This document shows positions 53,848-61,575 of a DNA stretch of 64,000 nt, in pieces (the stretch's first letter is position 1; each line of letters begins with the position of its first letter). The DNA is from Actinoallomurus soli. GTDB taxonomy: Bacteria > Actinomycetota > Actinomycetes > Streptosporangiales > Streptosporangiaceae. Where the stretch lies: assembly GCF_024055715.1 (NCBI RefSeq), contig NZ_JAMXMV010000004.1:62001-126000 (forward strand), in the 5' to 3' direction. The translations under genes were made by a program, and so were the position numbers. The notes beneath the pieces are model-generated. The model was not told the DNA's origin. It searched no databases and saw only the letters and a program-made list of their open reading frames with translations.

Positions 53848-56400
53848 TCAGCCGACGATCGGGAGGAACCGGCCGACGCCGTCGGTCGCCAGCGCCGCGG
53901 CGCGGCGCTCCTCCGGGACCGGGCCGTACAGGGTCGTCCGCTGCCGCGCCGGGCGCCCGGCCTTCGCGGCCAGCTCCTCCAGCGCCGACATCGTCTTGAA
54001 CGAGCCGTTCTCCGAGCCCGCCATCCGGCTGATCGTCTCCTCCATGAGCGTGCCGCCGAGGTCGTTGACGCCGCCCTGGAGGACCTGCGCGCACAGGTCG
54101 TCCTCGAGCTTCACCCACGAGCACTGGATGTTGGGGATCGCCCCGTGCAGGAGGACGCGGGCGAGCGCGTGCACGGCGCGGTTCTCCCGTGCGGTCGGGC
54201 CGGTCCGCGCCAGGCCCGCGAGGTAGATCGGCGCGTTGTGGTGCACGAAGGGCAGCAGGACGAACTCGGTGAAGCCGCCGGTGCGCTCCTGGATCGACCG
54301 GATCAGCTTCAGGTGCGCGACCCAGTGCGCGGGGGTGTCCACGTGGCCGTACATCATCGTGGACGTCGTCGGCAGGCCGATCTCGTGGGCGGTGGTGACG
54401 ACCTCGATCCACGCCGAGGTCGGCAGCTTGCCCTTCGTGAGCACCCAGCGCACGTCGTCGTCGAGGATCTCGGCGGCCGTGCCGGGCAGTGAGTCCACGC
54501 CCGCCGCCTTCGCCTCGAGCAGGAAGTCGCGGACCGACAGGTTCGTCCGGGCGGCGCCGTTGACGACCTCCATCGGGCTGAAGGCGTGCATGTGGATCTC
54601 CGGGGCCCGCCGTTTGACCTCGCGGGCGAGGTCGAAGTAGGCGGTGCCCGGCAGGTCGGGGTGGATGCCGCCCTGCATGCACACCTCGGTCGCCCCGGCC
54701 GCCCAGGCCTCGTCGATCCGCTGCCCGACCTGCTCGATCGACAGCGTGTACGCGTCGGCGTCCGTACGGCGCTGGGCGAACGCGCAGAACCGGCAGCCGG
54801 TGTAGCAGACGTTCGTGAAGTTGATGTTGCGAGTGACGACGTAGGTCACCTCGTCGCCGACGGCGTCGCGGCGCAGGTCGTCCGCCAGCCGGGCCAGGGC
54901 CTCCAGCTCGGGACCGTCGGCGTGCAGCAGGGCGAGGGCGTCCGCGTCGGACAGCCCGGCCGGGTCGCGCTCGGCGTTCCGGAGCGCCGCCGCCACGTCG
55001 GCGTCGAAGCGCTCCGCCGGACGGATCCGCGTCCCCACCTCGGACCAGTCGCCGTACACCTCGTCGAAGTCGTCCCGGCGGTCCTTCGTCCGGCCCTCGG
55101 CGTCGATCGCCACGTGCAGGTCCGTCCGTCCGGCCTCGCCCCAGCTGCCGTCCGGCTCCTGCCAGGGCAGGCCGGCCGGCGTGACGTCCTCGCGGGCCAG
55201 TCCGTCCGGGCCGGCCAGCGCGGCCACGTGGGCGGCGAGGCGCGGGTCGAGCCAGGACTCGCCGCGCCGGACGTACTCGGGGTAGATGGTCAGGCGCTCG
55301 CGCAGCGTGAAGCCGCTGTCGGCGGTGCGGGCGGCCAGCTCGTCGATGTGCGGCCACGGCCGCTCGGGGTTGACGTGGTCGGGGGTCAGCGGCGAGACGC
55401 CGCCCCAGTCGTCGATGCCCGCCCGCAGCATCAGGGCGTACTCGGAGTCGACGAGGTTCGGCGGGGCCTGCACCCGCGCCTTGGGCCCCAGGACGACGCG
55501 CGTCACGGCGATCGTGGCGGCCAGCTCCTCCAGCTCCGCGTCGGGCGTGGCGCGCATCTTGGTGTCCGGCTTGGCGCGGAAGTTCTGGACGATGACCTCC
55601 TGGATCCCGCCGTACTCCCGCATGACCTTGCGGATGGCGAAGATCGACTCGGCGCGGTCGCGGATCGTCTCGCCGATGCCGATGAGGATCCCGGTCGTGA
55701 ACGGGACGTTCGAGCGGCCGGCGTCCTCGAGCACCCGCAGGCGCACGGCCGGGTCCTTGTCCGGGGACCCGAAGTGCGCGCCGCCCTTCTCCTCGAACAG
55801 CCGGCGCGACGTCGTCTCCAGCATCATGCCCATCGACGGCGCGACCGGCCGCAGCCGCTGCAGGTCCCGCCAGCTCATCACGCCGGGGTTGAGGTGGGGC
55901 AGCAGCCCGGTCTCCTCCAGCACGCGGATCGCCATCGCGCGCACGTACGAGAGCGTGTCGTCGTAACCGTGCGCGTGCAGCCACTCGCCGGCCTGTTTCC
56001 AGCGGTCCTCCGGCCGGTCGCCGAGGGTGAACAGCGCCTCCTTGCACCCGAGCGCGGCACCCTGGCGGGCGATCTCCAGAACCTCGTCCGGGCCCAGGTA
56101 GGGCGCGTCCAGACGGCCGGGGACCGTGGCGAACGTGCAGTAGCCGCACCGGTCGCGGCACAGGCGCGTGAGGGGGATGAAGACCTTCCGGCTGTAGGTG
56201 ATCACGCCGGGCCGTCCGGCGGCCTCCAGCCCCGCGTCACGGACGCGGGCGGCGTACGTCAGGAGCGTCTCCAGGTCCTCGCCGCGAGCGTGCAACAGCA
56301 CCTCGGCCTCGGACACGTCGATCGACTTGCCGTCGCGCGCGCGGGCGAGCGCGCGGCGGAGGGCGGTGGGTGAGGGTGCCGGGGCGACCAGATCACTCAT
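53848..56400 (-). CDS. fbiC: F420 precursor Fo synthase FbiC (CofG/CofH fusion)
   Basis: An 850-aa fusion of two radical SAM enzymes that makes the deazaflavin Fo, the chromophore of F420, from tyrosine and a flavin precursor. The CofG half has CRDRCGYC, cysteines at 81, 85 and 88. The CofH half has [10 protein letters not shown] near residue 530. Both halves keep the TIM-barrel features ([51 protein letters not shown]). Start is ATG at 56400. Together with fbiA and fbiB it gives a nearly complete F420 pathway. Confidence 0.98.
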
Positions 56401-56564
56401 GCTGGAAACCTACGCCCGCGCCGTATCCGGTCTTCCCACTGCCCCCTGATGCCAGTGCGTATCCAAGTGAGAACGCACCAACCCTGGCCTGCGGGCCGAC
56501 GCTCACGACCAGCGTCCGGTCAGCCGCTCCCTATCCGTACCGGACGGCTCAGGCCACGCGTTGG

Positions 56565-56945
56565 TCAAGCGTGCTTTTCGATCTCTTCGAAGATATCGAT
56601 ATCGGTCTGTTGCTGCCATCCCGGAAGCACGTCCCAATCCGCGACGTAGGATGGCTTCGGGTCGGGAATGTGCTTGTAGATCTGAGCGATCCAACACAGC
56701 GCGACGAAGCGACCCTTTTGTTCTCGGGTGAGTTTGTCGGTCGCCCCGCCGGACACCGCGACGAAATCGGCCACTTGCCGGTAGACCGCACTTGCGGCTT
56801 GGCGTTCCCATTCGGGAGTCTCGTCCCACGGCGCGACGTAGCCGGGCTTGGGGTCACCTGGATAGTGCTTGCGCACTCCGGCGATCCATGCTTCCCGGAA
56901 GATACGGCCGTCTTCGCTTTGCCGGGTGTCCAGCTGTTCCTGCAT
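56565..56945 (-). CDS. Small protein with an internal ~42-residue duplication
   Basis: A 126-aa acidic soluble protein made of two copies of one motif. Copy 1 is at residues about 19-62 (WIAGVRKHYPGDPKPGYVAPWD, then PEWERQ), copy 2 at about 84-124 (WIAQIYKHIPDPKPSYVADWD, then PGWQQQ). The core DPKPxYVAxWDxxPxW is shared. The ATG at 56945 follows GAGGAG. It directly follows the XRE regulator gene (9-bp gap), so the two form an operon. The family is not one I can name; a regulatory or binding role is inferred. GC is visibly lower than the genome. Confidence 0.8.
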   Translation of the reverse strand: MQEQLDTRQSEDGRIFREAWIAGVRKHYPGDPKPGYVAPWDETPEWERQAASAVYRQVADFVAVSGGATDKLTREQKGRFVALCWIAQIYKHIPDPKPSYVADWDVLPGWQQQTDIDIFEEIEKHA

Positions 56946-56954
56946 ATCGTCTCC

Positions 56955-58247
56955 TCAGAGTTCGGCGATTCGTTCGCTGAGTTGAGCCGCCCGGCTGTTG
57001 GACGCCAACGGGGCAAGCTGGGTACGCAAATCTTGGAGCTTGCGCCCGATGTACCCCGACGAGCCGGTCTGTTCTGCTAGTTCGACCGCTTGCCCACCGT
57101 AATCCAGGACCCGGTCCAGGTCCCTGGCCTGCATACCCAGGGCGGCAAGGTCGGTCAGGATGCTTCCGCGCCGACGCGGCGATGTGGCCGTGTCGAGAGC
57201 CTTGATCAGCGCTTCGGAGGCCAAGTCGGCCCGCCCAAGAGCGGCGTAACACGTGCCGCGCTCCTCGGCCAATCGTGAGTCGTCAAAGCGGAGCCAGCCA
57301 CCTGGCATCGCACGCCCGGTCAGCGCCTTCACCTGCTCGGCTTCGTCGAGGGCACGTTGGCACGCGTCAAGGTCCCCCAGCCCGGCATACGCCTCAGCCT
57401 GCACCGCGGCAACCCAATGCCGGGTAGACAATTGCCGGTCACCACGTCGGGCGAGCCTGGCGGCCCCCTCCAAGATCGGCGTCACATCCTCGAATCGGCG
57501 TTCGTACATGCCGAGATAGGCGTGTCGGGTCAAGGCGCACGCCCACAGGTCGAACGCCTCAGCCTCTTTACTGGCATCGGCCGCGAGTTTGTAACAGTGC
57601 GCCGCGTCGGTATACCGGTCGGAGTCAAAGAAGATCTCTCCGGCCAGTTGGAGGAGATCCCCGGTAGCGGCACAGAGTCGCTTGTGCGCGGCGGACGAGT
57701 GCGCCCGGTCGAGGCTTCCGGTCAGCAAGCCCAGTTGTTGCCGTACGACCGGGTACACGGTCCGCTTGGACTCCGACAGGGCATACACCTGCCATAGGTG
57801 GGAGTTCAGCTGCTCGTACTGGCCGATCTGTTCGGAGTCATCGAGAGATCCATCGGTGACGAGATCAGGCACCGCGACCAGCGTTCCCGCGATGCTCAGC
57901 AGACGAAGCAACCCGCGGCGGTTCATGTCCTCCAGTCCATCAGAGTCGACATCGGGTGTAACCACTGTGGCAGCGATAACGCGGCCCTGGAGCACCCGTC
58001 TCTGAGCGGGCGGCGCGTGGACCTGCATCCATGCCGCGTCAATCATCAGTAATTCGTCCAGTTCCTCCCGGCTAACTTGGAGGAGCTCGCAGAGCTTGAA
58101 TCGGTGGTATAGCTGCGGGTCACATTGCCCGCGTTCCCATCGGGCGACGGTGGACCGGTCGGCCCCGAGCGCGGCGGCAAGCGACTCCTGAGTGAAGCCG
58201 CACGTTCTTCGGCGTTCGGCCAGCCGGGGCCGTCGTCCTGTCGTCAT
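56955..58247 (-). CDS. XRE-family regulator with TPR-like C-terminus
   Basis: A 430-aa protein with an N-terminal XRE helix-turn-helix (residues about 5-65: LAERRRTCGFTQESLAAALGADRSTVARWERG) and a long helical domain resembling tetratricopeptide repeats (about 170-420, with LQLAGEIFFDSDRYTDAAHCYKLAADASKEAEAFDLWACAL). This architecture is common in actinomycetes, where such regulators sit beside small accessory operons and may bind peptides. The ATG at 58247 follows GGAGGA. It is divergent from the HATPase gene that heads the putative RiPP operon, so regulation across the 277-bp gap is plausible. Confidence 0.93.
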   Translation of the reverse strand: MTTGRRPRLAERRRTCGFTQESLAAALGADRSTVARWERGQCDPQLYHRFKLCELLQVSREELDELLMIDAAWMQVHAPPAQRRVLQGRVIAATVVTPDVDSDGLEDMNRRGLLRLLSIAGTLVAVPDLVTDGSLDDSEQIGQYEQLNSHLWQVYALSESKRTVYPVVRQQLGLLTGSLDRAHSSAAHKRLCAATGDLLQLAGEIFFDSDRYTDAAHCYKLAADASKEAEAFDLWACALTRHAYLGMYERRFEDVTPILEGAARLARRGDRQLSTRHWVAAVQAEAYAGLGDLDACQRALDEAEQVKALTGRAMPGGWLRFDDSRLAEERGTCYAALGRADLASEALIKALDTATSPRRRGSILTDLAALGMQARDLDRVLDYGGQAVELAEQTGSSGYIGRKLQDLRTQLAPLASNSRAAQLSERIAEL

Positions 58248-58524
58248 CGAGAGTCCTCCAGGCGATGAAACCGACTCGCCATCGTCGGGTTTGCCAACGT
58301 CAGCGTAAGGCGTGAATCGGCGATGCAGCGCGAATGCAGCAGAGATGCCCCACGGTTGCACCAGCACCGCGCCACGGATGCTCTGGGGTGAAGGCGTTCG
58401 CTCGGCTTTCCTGGGAGAGAACCGAGCAACCAGCCATGAGCCGAGCTTGGATCCATCCCAATACGCAGAGTGATTCCACCATCACGGATCTCACTCGATG
58501 ACCCCCGACGGGGAGTGATTCCCT
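58248..58524. promoter_or_regulatory. Divergent promoter region of the RiPP-like island
   Basis: 277 bp between the XRE gene and the HATPase gene, of visibly lower GC than the rest of the window. It contains GATGCAGCG and GAATGCAGCA close together near 58319-58339, which may be half-sites. No hexamer could be fixed with confidence. Confidence 0.4.
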
Positions 58525-59013
58525 GTGCCACTAGAGTCAGCGGTCACCGACCGCACGTCCCCCACACCTCGCCGCCCTGCGTGGCGTGCCCTGCGCGCCC
58601 GGCCCAGCGAGGTGGCCCGGGCACGGTCTTTCGCCTCGTCCGAGGTGTTCGGTCTGCCGTTCGACGCCCACGAGATCGGGCTGATCACCAGCGAGATCGT
58701 CACCAACGCGGTCAACGCCGCCCGCGCGCTGTGCGAATGGCCGGACCACATGTCGCCGATCATCATCCGCATGGTCGTCACCGATCGGTATGTGCACCTG
58801 GCCGTCACCGACCCCGACCACCGGCCCATCGCCGGCCTGGACCAGGGCGGCCAACTCGCCGAGTACGGCCGCGGCCTATCGATCGTCGACCAGTTGGCCG
58901 CCGCGCGCTGGGTGACGTATGACGAGCAGTCCAAGATCGTGCACGTCGTCGTAGCCGCGGACAAGGTCATCCTGACCGACACCGAACTCATGCGGATCGG
59001 GGTGCCGGCGTGA
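58525..59013 (+). CDS. HATPase_c anti-sigma-type ATP-binding protein
   Basis: A 162-aa GHKL ATPase domain resembling RsbW-like anti-sigma kinases: RALRARPSEVARARSFASSEV, then the N-box ITSEIVTNAVNAARA, and a G-box GQLAEYGRGLSIVDQLAA. Such single-domain ATPases are common next to XRE regulators in actinomycetes. The GTG start at 58525 follows GGGGAG. Its stop overlaps the next small ORF as GTGA. It probably regulates the locus, but a kinase target is unknown. Confidence 0.9.
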   Translation: MPLESAVTDRTSPTPRRPAWRALRARPSEVARARSFASSEVFGLPFDAHEIGLITSEIVTNAVNAARALCEWPDHMSPIIIRMVVTDRYVHLAVTDPDHRPIAGLDQGGQLAEYGRGLSIVDQLAAARWVTYDEQSKIVHVVVAADKVILTDTELMRIGVPA

Positions 59014-59135
59014 GCGGCGAACAGATCTCCTGCCAGGTCACCCGGGCCCCCTACGTCCCCGGCTTTTGCAGCGCCCGACGCATCGAGTTCGGCGCCCTCT
59101 CGGCGGCCACAGAACGCCGCGAGCCGGGCCCGTAG
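59010..59135 (+). CDS. Small 41-aa protein, GTGA-overlapped
   Basis: A 41-codon ORF starting at a GTG that overlaps the HATPase stop by 4 bp. It starts VSGEQISCQVTRAPYVPGFC and has two cysteines. The overlap suggests translational coupling, but there is no independent ribosome binding site and no recognised family. It may be real or a read-through product; a hairpin (59159-59190) follows it. Confidence 0.45.
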   Translation: MSGEQISCQVTRAPYVPGFCSARRIEFGALSAATERREPGP

Positions 59136-59158
59136 CGCAGGACCCACAGCCGCGGCCG

Positions 59159-59190
59159 ACCGTGGCTCTGGCGCTTACTCAGGCCACGGT
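59159..59190 (+). promoter_or_regulatory. Intercistronic hairpin before the precursor-like gene
   Basis: ACCGTGGC (59159-59166) and GCCACGGT (59183-59190) form a perfect 8-bp stem 20 bp before the precursor's GGGAGG. It could process or partly terminate the upstream transcript, isolating the precursor gene. Confidence 0.55.
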
Positions 59191-59222
59191 TCTCGTAAGA
59201 GGCACACGCGAAGGGAGGTGTC

Positions 59223-59369
59223 ATGGTCACGCTGACGCTCGACCCCATCGGGGACCTGTTCACCGATACGCCGGAGTGGGAGGTTCCCCCGGTCGAGGAC
59301 CGCTTCGCCTACAAGAAGAAGGCGGGCTCCTCGGACAGCTACAACACCAAGGACGAGATCGAGACCTGA
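59223..59369 (+). CDS. Putative RiPP precursor peptide (48 aa)
   Basis: A 48-aa acidic peptide with a strong ribosome binding site (AGGGAGGTG). The N-terminal part (MVTLTLDPIGDLFTDTPEW) looks like a leader. The C-terminal part carries three lysines (31-33), then AGSSDSYNTKDEIET. It sits directly upstream of a cyclase-type enzyme and a strong hairpin, as RiPP precursors do. Candidate core residues include Gly35, Lys43 and several Asp/Glu acceptors. The canonical lasso leader features (penultimate Thr, YxxP) are absent, so product type is uncertain. Confidence 0.7.
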   Translation: MVTLTLDPIGDLFTDTPEWEVPPVEDRFAYKKKAGSSDSYNTKDEIET

Positions 59370-59396
59370 CCGTCGACGCGTGAGAGTCGACACGTT

Positions 59397-59422
59397 GGCC
59401 GGCGGCCTTCGTGCCGCCGGCC
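59397..59422 (+). terminator. Attenuator-like hairpin after the precursor
   Basis: GGCCGGCGGC (59397-59406) and GCCGCCGGCC (59413-59422) make a perfect 10-bp GC stem with a 6-nt loop between the precursor-like gene and the cyclase gene. Partial terminators here commonly keep precursor mRNA in excess over enzyme mRNA. Confidence 0.8.
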
Positions 59423-59445
59423 TTCCACTCCGAACGGGAGCTGGC

Positions 59446-60921
59446 ATGCTGAAGCTGAAAATCTCGATCGACGATACGAACGGGCCGTGGACGTGGGACG
59501 GCCGCCGGTGGACGCACGGGCGGTCCTGGATCGAGCCGTACGCCCATCCGGCCTTGGAGCGCCTGCACGCATACGGCCGGTTCTGCATCCGCGAACGCAT
59601 GGCCTGCCGCGACGGGCAGCCGGCCGACTTCCTCGACATCCGGATCGACGCCGGGCGGGTCCGGATCACCGCCGGGCTGCGGGGCGTCGCGCCGCTGTAT
59701 GTCGCCGAGCAGGCCGGGGTCCTTCACGGCTCCTGGGATCTGTTCGACCTCCGGCCTCACATCGACCCGGGGAAGCTACTCGACCGTGAAGTGGCCCGGC
59801 TGCTGGCGTTCCGCGTCCGGTACGGACACGACACCGTGTTCGCCGGCGTCTACCGGATCAGCGAACGGTCCACCGCCGTCTACGACCGCAATGGCCTCAC
59901 CCTGCACTACCCCGAGCCCGCGCTGCACTCGCGGTCCCGGCAGTTACGCCCCGACGTCGACGATGCCGCGGTGATCGACGCGTACGAGCAGTTGCTCGCT
60001 GGGGCCGTCGCCGGGCATCGCTACGATCCGGCGAGCTCCTGCGTCGAGCTGTCCGGCGGCATGGACTCCGCGAACGTCGCAGCAACGCTCGGTGCCCTCC
60101 ACCCGGCACAGGTGAGCGCGGGAGCGTTGATCATCCTCGGTGACGCCGGACGGCAACAGATCCGTCGCCGTGACGCGTTCATCGACCTGCTGCAACTCGG
60201 TGCGGACACCCAGGTCACCCTCGGCGGGCGGCTGCCGTTCTGCCCCGGCGGCCGACGCGGCCCCTACGATGACGCCTACGCCGAAGCCAAGAACATCCTG
60301 CTCGCTCGGCTGGCCGGCCAGGGTGTCCGGACGGTGTTCACCGGCATCGGCGGGGATGAGATGGTCGCGGTGACGTCGCGAGAGTGGCCACACCCGCCCT
60401 ACGGCACCGAGTTGGAGACCAAATCCTGGATCGGTGACCGGGTCGTGGACGGGCTGAAGGAGGCCGAGGACAACGTCGCTCCCGCAGCGGTCATCAACGA
60501 GATGACGTTGTCCGCGCAGGCGTGCGCGGCGCCGGCGTTCCTGCGCGCCGGGATGTGGCCCGTTCATCCGCTCGCCGATCCGCGGCTGATCACCTTCGGC
60601 GAATGGCTGCCCCTGGGGTGGAGACGCCACAAACGTCTCCACCGCGAACGGCTGGAACACCGCGGCTGCCACGGCGAACTGATCCACCCGCCACTGGTGG
60701 AGAACTTCGCGCCGGTGATGCGTGAAGGCCTTCGCCGCCACGGCGTCGCGCACATCAATGTCATGCTCGGCGGAGGTTCACCGCTGATCGACGGCGGTTA
60801 CGTCGCAGCGGATGGCCTGGCCGACGCCCGCGACCGCATCGCCCGTGGCCAGTTCCTCGATCGGGACGCGGAGCTGTATATGGTGCTGGCCCTAGATCTG
60901 ACCCTGCGATCGTTCAGCTGA
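59446..60921 (+). CDS. Asparagine-synthetase-like macrolactam cyclase
   Basis: A 491-aa asparagine synthetase B-like enzyme with no N-terminal Cys2, so it cannot use glutamine like AsnB. It resembles lasso-peptide and albusnodin-family cyclases and beta-lactam synthetase. The degenerate N-terminal domain covers about 1-160. The ATP-pyrophosphatase loop is CVELSGGMDSANVAATLG (SGGMDS at 203-208), and GIGGDE is at 300-305. It would adenylate a side-chain carboxylate and form an amide. The ATG at 59446 follows GGGAG; an upstream frame start at 59380 lies in the hairpin. It overlaps the convergent GNAT gene. Confidence 0.88.
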   Translation: MLKLKISIDDTNGPWTWDGRRWTHGRSWIEPYAHPALERLHAYGRFCIRERMACRDGQPADFLDIRIDAGRVRITAGLRGVAPLYVAEQAGVLHGSWDLFDLRPHIDPGKLLDREVARLLAFRVRYGHDTVFAGVYRISERSTAVYDRNGLTLHYPEPALHSRSRQLRPDVDDAAVIDAYEQLLAGAVAGHRYDPASSCVELSGGMDSANVAATLGALHPAQVSAGALIILGDAGRQQIRRRDAFIDLLQLGADTQVTLGGRLPFCPGGRRGPYDDAYAEAKNILLARLAGQGVRTVFTGIGGDEMVAVTSREWPHPPYGTELETKSWIGDRVVDGLKEAEDNVAPAAVINEMTLSAQACAAPAFLRAGMWPVHPLADPRLITFGEWLPLGWRRHKRLHRERLEHRGCHGELIHPPLVENFAPVMREGLRRHGVAHINVMLGGGSPLIDGGYVAADGLADARDRIARGQFLDRDAELYMVLALDLTLRSFS

Positions 60922-61441
60922 CCGGCGCGCCGGTCAGCACGGGCAGGTCGGGCTGCAGCTCGGCACGCCGAGCCAGCCCGACCACCGTTACACCGCCACG
61001 TTCCTGCTCCCGCACGATCTGCCAGCCCTGCACCTGCGTGTAGTAGCGGACCAGACCCGGCTCGATCGTGCCGCGCCGCACCCATTCCCGGCCGCTGCGG
61101 GCCGCGTGGTCCAGGACCCAGCGGAGCATCAGGTGCCCGAAGCCCTGGCCGGCGAACGCCGGATCGGTGACCGTCGAAGCGACGAAGTATGCCGTCTCGG
61201 CGCACTCCTCAGGCGTCCAGAACCACGCGGGGGACTCCTCATACAGGCACGTCGCCCCGGCCACCTGACCGTCGCGGGTCAGGACCCACATCGGAAAGTC
61301 GGCGTCGGCGGCCTGGCGGCCGTACTCGGGTGCGAACTCCCGCCATCCCTGCCCGTGCAGTCCGCGAGCCTCCAGCCAGTCCGCCCGCGCCTGCGTCATC
61401 GCTACGATCGGCTCGCTGTCCTCGGCGGTCGCCGGGCGCAT
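60914..61441 (-). CDS. GNAT-family N-acetyltransferase
   Basis: A 175-aa acetyltransferase. The core is AYFVASTVTDPAFAGQGFGHLMLRWVLDHAARSGREWVRRG, with the acetyl-CoA loop GQGFGH, then VRYYTQVQGWQIVREQ. The start at 61441 (MRPATAEDS) or a GTG at 61444 is preferred; the ATG at 61450 abuts its GGAGG. It overlaps the cyclase gene end-to-end by 8 bp. In albusnodin-type clusters an acetyltransferase modifies a lysine of the peptide; the same is plausible here (inference), or it may be a self-resistance enzyme. Confidence 0.85.
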   Translation of the reverse strand: MRPATAEDSEPIVAMTQARADWLEARGLHGQGWREFAPEYGRQAADADFPMWVLTRDGQVAGATCLYEESPAWFWTPEECAETAYFVASTVTDPAFAGQGFGHLMLRWVLDHAARSGREWVRRGTIEPGLVRYYTQVQGWQIVREQERGGVTVVGLARRAELQPDLPVLTGAPVS

Positions 61442-61575
61442 CACCAGCATCCTCCGACCCTATGCAATCCGGCCCGTCGACGCCGCGACAACCCATCGGA
61501 TCGGTCGCGCCCCGGACATGACGAAGCGCCCCCGCCCTCCCCGCAGACCGGACTGGTGCGGAGCGGTTCCCGTGA

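Follow-up and report, generated by a model that had tools for sequence, protein, structure and literature searches.

Our study describes a small peptide and a ligase of the asparagine synthetase B (AsnB) superfamily, which are encoded side by side in a 64,000-nucleotide window of the Actinoallomurus soli genome (contig NZ_JAMXMV010000004.1; all coordinates are those of the window). The 48-residue peptide (59223..59369, + strand) and the 491-residue AsnB-like enzyme (59446..60921, +) are a conserved pair in Actinomycetota, in gamma- and alphaproteobacteria and in one Bacteroidota genome, and we have little doubt that the peptide and its dedicated AsnB-fold ligase constitute a real conserved system. 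From the residues that are conserved in the peptides we propose that this is probably a ribosomally synthesized and post-translationally modified peptide (RiPP), whose ligase of the AsnB/beta-lactam synthetase fold joins the side chains of Lys32 and Asp38 into a macrolactam with no removal of the leader. A small precursor gene conserved beside a modifying enzyme is what is generally expected of a RiPP. Somewhat more cautiously, we suggest that these loci represent a RiPP class new to the literature searched, in which the core would be a 30-60-residue peptide and an AsnB-fold ligase that links the side chains of Lys(i) and Asp(i+6) into a macrolactam while the leader stays in place; the class would extend from Actinomycetota to gammaproteobacteria and alphaproteobacteria, in the latter often on plasmids of rhizobia, and perhaps to Bacteroidota, with clade-specific decoration by a GNAT, a methyltransferase or an APH-type enzyme. 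Searches of open-access papers in PubMed Central gave no account of the peptides or of the gene pair, which may be in print elsewhere.

Conservation of the peptide and ligase pair

The window contains, where the original prediction had placed them, the peptide gene preceded by a Shine-Dalgarno-like sequence (AAGGGAGGT, 59211..59219, +, read directly), a GC hairpin with a 10-bp stem, the gene for an AsnB-like protein that lacks the glutaminase cysteine, and a convergent gene for a GNAT acetyltransferase (60914..61450, -; PF00583, E 4.4e-7), for which we presume a role in tailoring or self-protection. The compact RiPP-like locus drawn at 56549..61450 held up in its peptide, its candidate AsnB-type cyclase and its GNAT, but not in its extent: the conserved core covers only 59223-61450, and a 126-residue gene (56565-56945) was rejected as part of the unit, as it has no relative in 87 related loci. 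In a BLAST clustering of 29 neighbourhoods, for which, as for the later neighbourhood comparisons, gene calls and clusters came from a crude in-house caller and single linkage, the only widely common families were the enzyme (29), the precursor (27 loci, with 28 peptides in the cluster) and the GNAT (25).

Within the family of A. soli, 28 of 297 genomes have the enzyme, as do 2 of 396 genomes of a phylum-wide sample (the A. soli genome being counted in both); none of the seven listed congeners does. A first contig scan with a single protein query returned 43 stretches, none of which was confirmed. A profile scan of named genomes, from which the best 80 of 110 relatives were retained, found hosts in Streptomyces, Nocardiopsis, Actinomadura, Pseudonocardia, Kribbella, Frankia and other genera, and more distant relatives in Dyella, Xanthomonas and one Flavobacteriaceae metagenome-assembled genome. 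With duplicates dropped there are 87 distinct enzyme loci, and in 75 of these a peptide with a KxxGxxD motif near its end is encoded directly upstream. The other 12 comprise five truncated enzymes (L062, L063, L136, L140 and L144), one locus masked upstream of the enzyme (L079), one whose KAPGHQD motif is in an extended reading frame (L126), and five loci of gammaproteobacteria, whose peptide is a different one. The original prediction had allowed that homologs of the enzyme might lack a linked peptide gene and that the 48-residue frame might not be conserved; neither proved to be the case, since one motif links the large majority of the loci and most others are explained, and the peptide is conserved in the 28-sequence alignment described below.

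When the order of Dyella was searched, 29 of 398 genomes proved to have the enzyme, at 30 loci in all, and 27 of these loci also encode a peptide with an NPFGIQ-like leader; in L165 and L177 the peptide falls outside that pattern. Gene calls in 25 xanthomonad-type neighbourhoods, 24 of them distinct because L185 lies on the same contig as L138, gave the enzyme in all 25 and the peptide in 24, and besides these two no cluster occurs in more than three. The Flavobacteriaceae enzyme was found in 1 of 395 genomes of its order, namely its own. A further set of plasmid loci, 14 of 46 records, was fetched by the enzyme alone.

Lysine and aspartate in the precursor peptides

Alignment of the 28 peptides chosen by BLAST leaves as invariant columns only Phe13, Lys32, Gly35, Asp38 and Asp44 (window numbering; the codons are at 59316-59318 for Lys32, 59334-59336 for Asp38 and 59352-59354 for Asp44, the second conserved aspartate). 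In the core it is thus Lys32, Gly35, Asp38 and Asp44 that are invariant, and not the whole of the AGSSDSYNTKDEIET stretch, which had been singled out as a region to be followed across genomes. The subfamilies follow patterns such as YKKxxGSSDxxxTYDT, EYTKxxGxSDxxxxYDE[IM], LETKKFSGNSDTNTERDEHE and K[AM]PG..D..GDHC, and in 11 aligned xanthomonad-type peptides the invariant residues are only Met1, Asn16, Pro17, Pro25, Lys38 and Asp45. Comparison with known precursor families, proposed at the outset, gave nothing for the window peptide, which is matched by no NCBIfam, Pfam or PADLOC model; the precursors as a group matched no NCBIfam or Pfam family besides a single DUF4621 match (E 0.051).

The feature that these peptides share is a lysine followed six (K+6D), or sometimes seven (K+7D), positions later by an aspartate. 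All 28 BLAST-chosen peptides have K+6D (shuffled sequences: mean 6.7, maximum 13), and all 28 likewise have K+12D, which corresponds to Asp44. In the xanthomonad-type set, which was chosen by the leader, K+6D is found in 24 of 27 whole peptides (shuffles: mean 6.2, maximum 12); within the last 34 residues, 22 of the 27 have K+6D and the remaining five K+7D, and a +3 spacing also exceeds the shuffles (17 of 27, maximum 13). Spacings of +7 and +13 are raised in a set of 102 peptides, as expected from neighbouring Lys or Asp residues; 75 of these peptides were preselected by the K..G..D pattern, a choice of which the BLAST-, leader- and enzyme-chosen sets are free. Among 20 representatives with less than 45% identity, 18 have K+6D, which ranks top among all ordered residue pairs at spacings of 1-19, the KxxGxxD members of this group having been chosen by a pattern that itself contains K+6D.

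The plasmid loci have 35 upstream open reading frames (ORFs) preceded by a ribosome-site-like sequence; K+6D or K+7D occurs in 14 of these, a single frame at each locus, and the remaining 21 lack both. A C-terminal K+6D peptide was counted in 13 of the 14 loci, with L217 left out because its Lys/Asp pair lies outside the part matching the core. The cores on Rhizobiales plasmids read KGGKPGD (three Rhizobium), KVRLPGD and KRRLPGD (Mesorhizobium), KAPFPND and KFVLSGD (Bradyrhizobium), and KFQLSGD and KFLVRGD (Rhizobium), and those on other plasmids KPAGTED, KMPGGGD and KAAETSD (Streptomyces) and KPYLGDD (Xanthomonas). The residues between Lys and Asp vary and the Gly shifts or is absent, while the distance is nearly constant, and across the family no acid or amine other than Asp (at +6, sometimes +7) and Lys keeps its register. 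In the YKK subfamily the core is so strongly conserved that a single conserved target, or a signal, seems likelier than a fast-changing toxin. Tandem, non-identical precursor genes precede a single enzyme gene at L037:8447-8712, in L164 (gaps of 113 and 328) and in L168 (gaps of 89 and 307).

A small frame lying 20-160 nucleotides upstream of the enzyme gene in 71 loci, often with a hairpin between the two, could also be read as encoding a peptide that regulates or attenuates the enzyme gene and is no substrate at all. The hairpin of the window (59397..59422, +) has a perfect 10-bp stem (59397-59406/59413-59422), and in the 71 homologous gaps perfect stems of at least 8 bp, differing in sequence, occur in 23, a count made without shuffle control; the mean folding z of these gaps is -2.3 against mononucleotide shuffles. 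Such a role would leave unexplained the conservation of the C-terminus as amino acids, with invariant Lys, Gly and Asp, the distinct tandem copies, and the exchange of tailoring genes that tracks the type of core (see below), and we regard it as very improbable. For a precursor that is a substrate, the hairpin probably keeps expression of the peptide above that of the enzyme, and strong folding of the gap in many loci is as would be expected of a precursor made in excess.

The ligase and its proposed reaction

The window enzyme has SGGMDS and GIGGDE motifs and begins with MLK, with no Cys2, and this cysteine is missing throughout a 22-row alignment of the enzymes, one row of which lacks the first residues. 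A larger alignment, where 46 of 105 rows start with Met, was left out of this assessment as an unfair test of Cys2. Pfam places it in Asn_synthase (PF00733, E 5.4e-7), and its matches to NCBIfam are all below threshold. A glutamine-hydrolysing asparagine synthase was rejected on a score of 28.4 bits against TIGR01536 (cut-off 267.1) and on the absence of the catalytic cysteine. A sequence search of the PDB gave beta-lactam synthetase as the sole significant family (E 1.3e-9), and the predicted fold matches this enzyme over the whole chain, including the PP-loop. AsnB-fold enzymes without a working glutaminase, such as beta-lactam synthetase and the lasso cyclases, pass an ATP-activated carboxylate to an amine. 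Beta-lactam and carbapenam synthetases form an intramolecular amide in a small-molecule substrate; they share the predicted fold and the PP-loop with the window enzyme, but their identity to it is 12-18%. Beta-lactam synthetase acts on carboxyethylarginine in a beta-lactam cluster; the genes adjoining our enzyme encode a peptide and a GNAT. In a structural comparison whose list has no lasso-cyclase structure, a gap that carries no weight, the top match was the hydroxyamidotransferase TsnB9 (Z 21.7, 441 residues, 4.2 Å), yet at 13% identity. TsnB9 amidates with an outside amine donor, and a related chemistry would have Asp amidated with an outside amine, or a small molecule loaded on a carrier peptide, with Lys kept for recognition or modified by other enzymes. 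The invariance of Lys, which equals that of Asp, their near-fixed distance, and the fact that the nearest relative of known structure by sequence forms an intramolecular amide make such a ligation rather improbable.

For the side-chain macrolactam that we favour, the ribosome would make the 48-residue precursor, whose N-terminal part (the region of the LF motif) would be bound by the AsnB-like enzyme. The enzyme with ATP would then activate the side chain of Asp38 as an acyl-adenylate, and the side-chain amine of Lys32 would attack it to give a macrolactam spanning seven residues (K32-K-A-G-S-S-D38), so that the window enzyme is a presumed Lys-Asp macrolactam synthetase. Afterwards, the GNAT may acetylate the product or protect the cell, with a methyltransferase in its place in a sister clade. 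We infer the adenylation of Asp38, the Lys-Asp bond, the order of the steps, and the roles of the GNAT and of the product. With a side chain as the nucleophile in place of a freed N-terminus, neither the leader peptidase (B2) nor the separate RiPP recognition element (RRE, B1) of lasso peptide systems would be needed, and a Lys-Asp side-chain macrolactam would account both for the invariant Lys and for the missing peptidase. The proposed linkage, from side chain to side chain with the leader kept during cyclisation, is like that of the graspetides, and the spacings in microviridins are similar to those of the unit. Unlike the graspetide enzymes, the ligase of the unit is of the AsnB fold (PF00733) and not an ATP-grasp protein, and a Pfam scan of six locus proteins found no ATP-grasp domain.

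The unit has in common with lasso peptides an AsnB-superfamily ligase without the glutaminase cysteine and a small gene-encoded precursor. By its defining genes, however, it is not a lasso peptide: it has no RRE B1, no B2 peptidase and no YxxP leader, and it is set apart by its invariant Lys-Asp pair and by enzymes that form one clade, to which none of the tested lasso cyclases and AsnB proteins belongs. The observation in the original prediction that lasso B1 and B2 genes are missing extends to the whole A. soli genome, which gave no match to PF05402 (B1) or PF13471 (B2). B2 is absent from 9 and B1 from 11 of the 29 holder genomes, and both are absent from three, namely the A. soli genome, G201 and G203; B1 and B2 matches lying side by side in other holder genomes demonstrate that the searches work. 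The Flavobacteriaceae and Xanthomonas holders have no B2 match, and two Dyella genomes have weak B2 matches within frames of 522 and 645 codons, the first barely above the cut-off. The precursor, too, is as originally described, as the window peptide has no YxxP and neither YxxP nor a penultimate Thr is an invariant column in the 28 peptides.

These findings bear on the proposal that the locus is of the albusnodin type, an assignment that combines an AsnB-like enzyme with an acetyltransferase, as does albusnodin (PMC9266682). The albusnodin cluster consists of albA, albB, albC and albT, albusnodin is acetylated on Lys10, and no product is seen without albT (PMC9266682). The match failed for the window enzyme, which scores 15.8 bits against the albusnodin/ikarugamycin cyclase model NF033561 (cut-off 300); 17 of 22 enzyme relatives match this model at E ≤0.01, the best at 2.4e-8. 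Our profile A1 aligned with one lasso cyclase over 50 columns only. Four NF033561-type loci, of which only the L150 cyclase exceeds the cut-off, were found by eye to encode a YxxP precursor and a cyclase followed by B1 and B2 or their fusion, with an ABC-type protein in three; the YxxP of all four is missing from our peptide. A canonical albusnodin-type lasso with B1 and B2 encoded elsewhere could draw on the B2 match present somewhere in 20 of the 29 holder genomes, but the three genomes with neither match contradict it, and together with the separate enzyme clade they leave it a negligible likelihood. The idea of a lasso peptide borrowing distant proteins was accordingly given up.

A different lasso type, in which a protease cuts before the conserved Lys and its alpha-amine is joined to Asp to give a ring with a threaded tail, fits the spacing: K+6D or K+7D would give a ring of 7 or 8 residues, and several subfamilies have at least six residues after the Asp. 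Known lasso rings have 7-9 residues. An alpha-amine nucleophile leaves the invariance of Lys across phyla unexplained, the residue preceding Lys varies (K, T, R, P, M, I), B2 matches are lacking in the A. soli, Flavobacteriaceae and Xanthomonas genomes, and no conserved peptidase gene was seen, save that of an M20 peptidase, present in five of the 87 loci; we consider this reading possible but unlikely. Gly35 as the first lasso residue was rejected, as the invariant aspartates would lie at +3 (too small) or +9 (a ring of 10) and the Gly shifts or is absent in other groups.

Several observations weigh against the Lys32-Asp38 macrolactam or the breadth that we ascribe to it. The case for it is drawn from genes and sequences. 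In the actinomycetes Asp44 is as invariant as Asp38 and could be the acid that is used there; five xanthomonad-type peptides have a core spacing of +7 instead of +6; and a seven-residue lasso ring starting from Lys has the same spacing as our macrolactam, although it does not explain why Lys is invariant. The precursor frames of L126 and L217 have C-termini unlike those of their relatives; in L162, one of the 30 Dyella-order loci, no peptide could be recognised; and L110 is an exception to the pairing of core and tailoring gene, with a YKK core, an enzyme in two frames and no GNAT within 2.2 kb. There is only one Flavobacteriaceae locus, where the motif may have arisen by chance, and the counts and shuffles throughout treat kin sequences as independent, though they are related. 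The conserved pair, the Lys-Asp spacing and the lack of B1 and B2 nevertheless support the side-chain-amide RiPP, or new class, that the original prediction had listed as an option.

Neighbouring genes and wider implications

The GNAT gene lies within 200 nucleotides of the enzyme gene in 73 of the 87 loci, reading in the same direction in 39 and convergently in 34; in L086 it is 2.3 kb upstream, and 13 loci lack it. A tblastn search found it beside the enzyme in all 29 of the first neighbourhoods. Six of the 13 loci without a GNAT are of the K[AM]PG..D subtype (including L126 with its changed end), and in five of these six (L106, L114, L121, L126 and L127) an S-adenosylmethionine-dependent methyltransferase gene stands 3' of the enzyme (PF13649, E 3.1e-14 for L106); in the sixth, L125, inspection by eye showed only a short ORF that looks like a remnant. 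The plasmid locus L209 likewise combines a GDHC core with a methyltransferase. The Rhizobiales loci L211, L213 and L214 have a phosphotransferase and a GNAT after the enzyme, with the APH domain shown for L211, whose GNAT has no detectable kinship with that of the window (BLASTP E 0.61). Since K+6D is kept where the GNAT is missing, Lys and Asp go with the ligase. A search of the PDB with the GNAT profile gave puromycin N-acetyltransferase (E 0.0013) and one other match, both weak. The second core Lys is unlikely to be the GNAT target as a general rule, as L055 has a GNAT and only one core Lys.

Other neighbours are confined to small groups of loci. In L056 (9251-11148) and its relatives, 5 of the 87 loci, an M20-family peptidase gene (PF01546) and a gene for a 233-residue protein lie upstream of the precursor and are perhaps accessory. 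In L046 (3180-4283) and its relatives, six loci, a 382-residue protein that resembles protein-isoaspartate methyltransferases by eye is encoded within 4.5 kb, upstream in three and downstream in three; such methyltransferases are linked to aspartimide RiPPs (PMC13001092). An ABC-transporter gene follows the enzyme on two Streptomyces plasmids (L208:3249-4991 and L216:5146-7038). The cassette at L086:8004-12508 has neighbours that resemble, by eye, genes for an integrase, an excisionase and a primase, and may perhaps belong to an integrative element. On two Rhizobium plasmids (L206:2786-3847 and L207:2811-3846) the pair is directly downstream of an acyl-homoserine-lactone synthase gene, so that quorum sensing may control the product; L205 has such a gene about 2.4 kb upstream on the opposite strand.

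Upstream of the precursor, the window has genes for an NsdA-family XRE-TPR protein (56955..58247, -; NF053720, 154.9 bits, cut-off 75), a possible regulator outside the conserved core, and for a HATPase (58525-59013). Under strict criteria, neither clustered with any other gene of the 29 loci; a looser comparison of the 87 loci placed the XRE-TPR cluster in 22 and the HATPase cluster in 12. In the 73 loci whose flanks extend over 4.5 kb each way, the XRE-TPR cluster is upstream in 15, always divergent as in the window, and downstream in two. Together with two further regulator-like clusters, whose representatives are an NsdA-family protein (89.5 bits) and a protein with an HTH_3 domain, it is found upstream 31 times and downstream three times (binomial p 8e-7, relatedness ignored), and a regulator is thus probably linked to the unit, to which the NsdA-type gene of the window may belong. 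The HATPase cluster (eight upstream and two downstream, p 0.11, not significant) is perhaps linked as well. PADLOC gave no match, and a reading as a defence system was dropped on that result. Further away (53848-56400, -), an 850-residue two-domain protein looks like a radical S-adenosylmethionine enzyme by eye, and we take it to resemble the F420 enzyme FbiC.

To our knowledge, AsnB-fold ligases in RiPPs have until now been tied to lasso peptides. If our proposal is true, a single ligase of this fold and its peptide suffice for a side-chain macrolactam, which would be a simple and portable tool for cyclisation and a convergent answer to the graspetides. Mining rules that demand a B2 peptidase would then miss the family. 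It would also become testable whether the lasso cyclases and these ligases arose from a common peptide ligase, and whether B1 and B2 were gained in one line or lost in the other.

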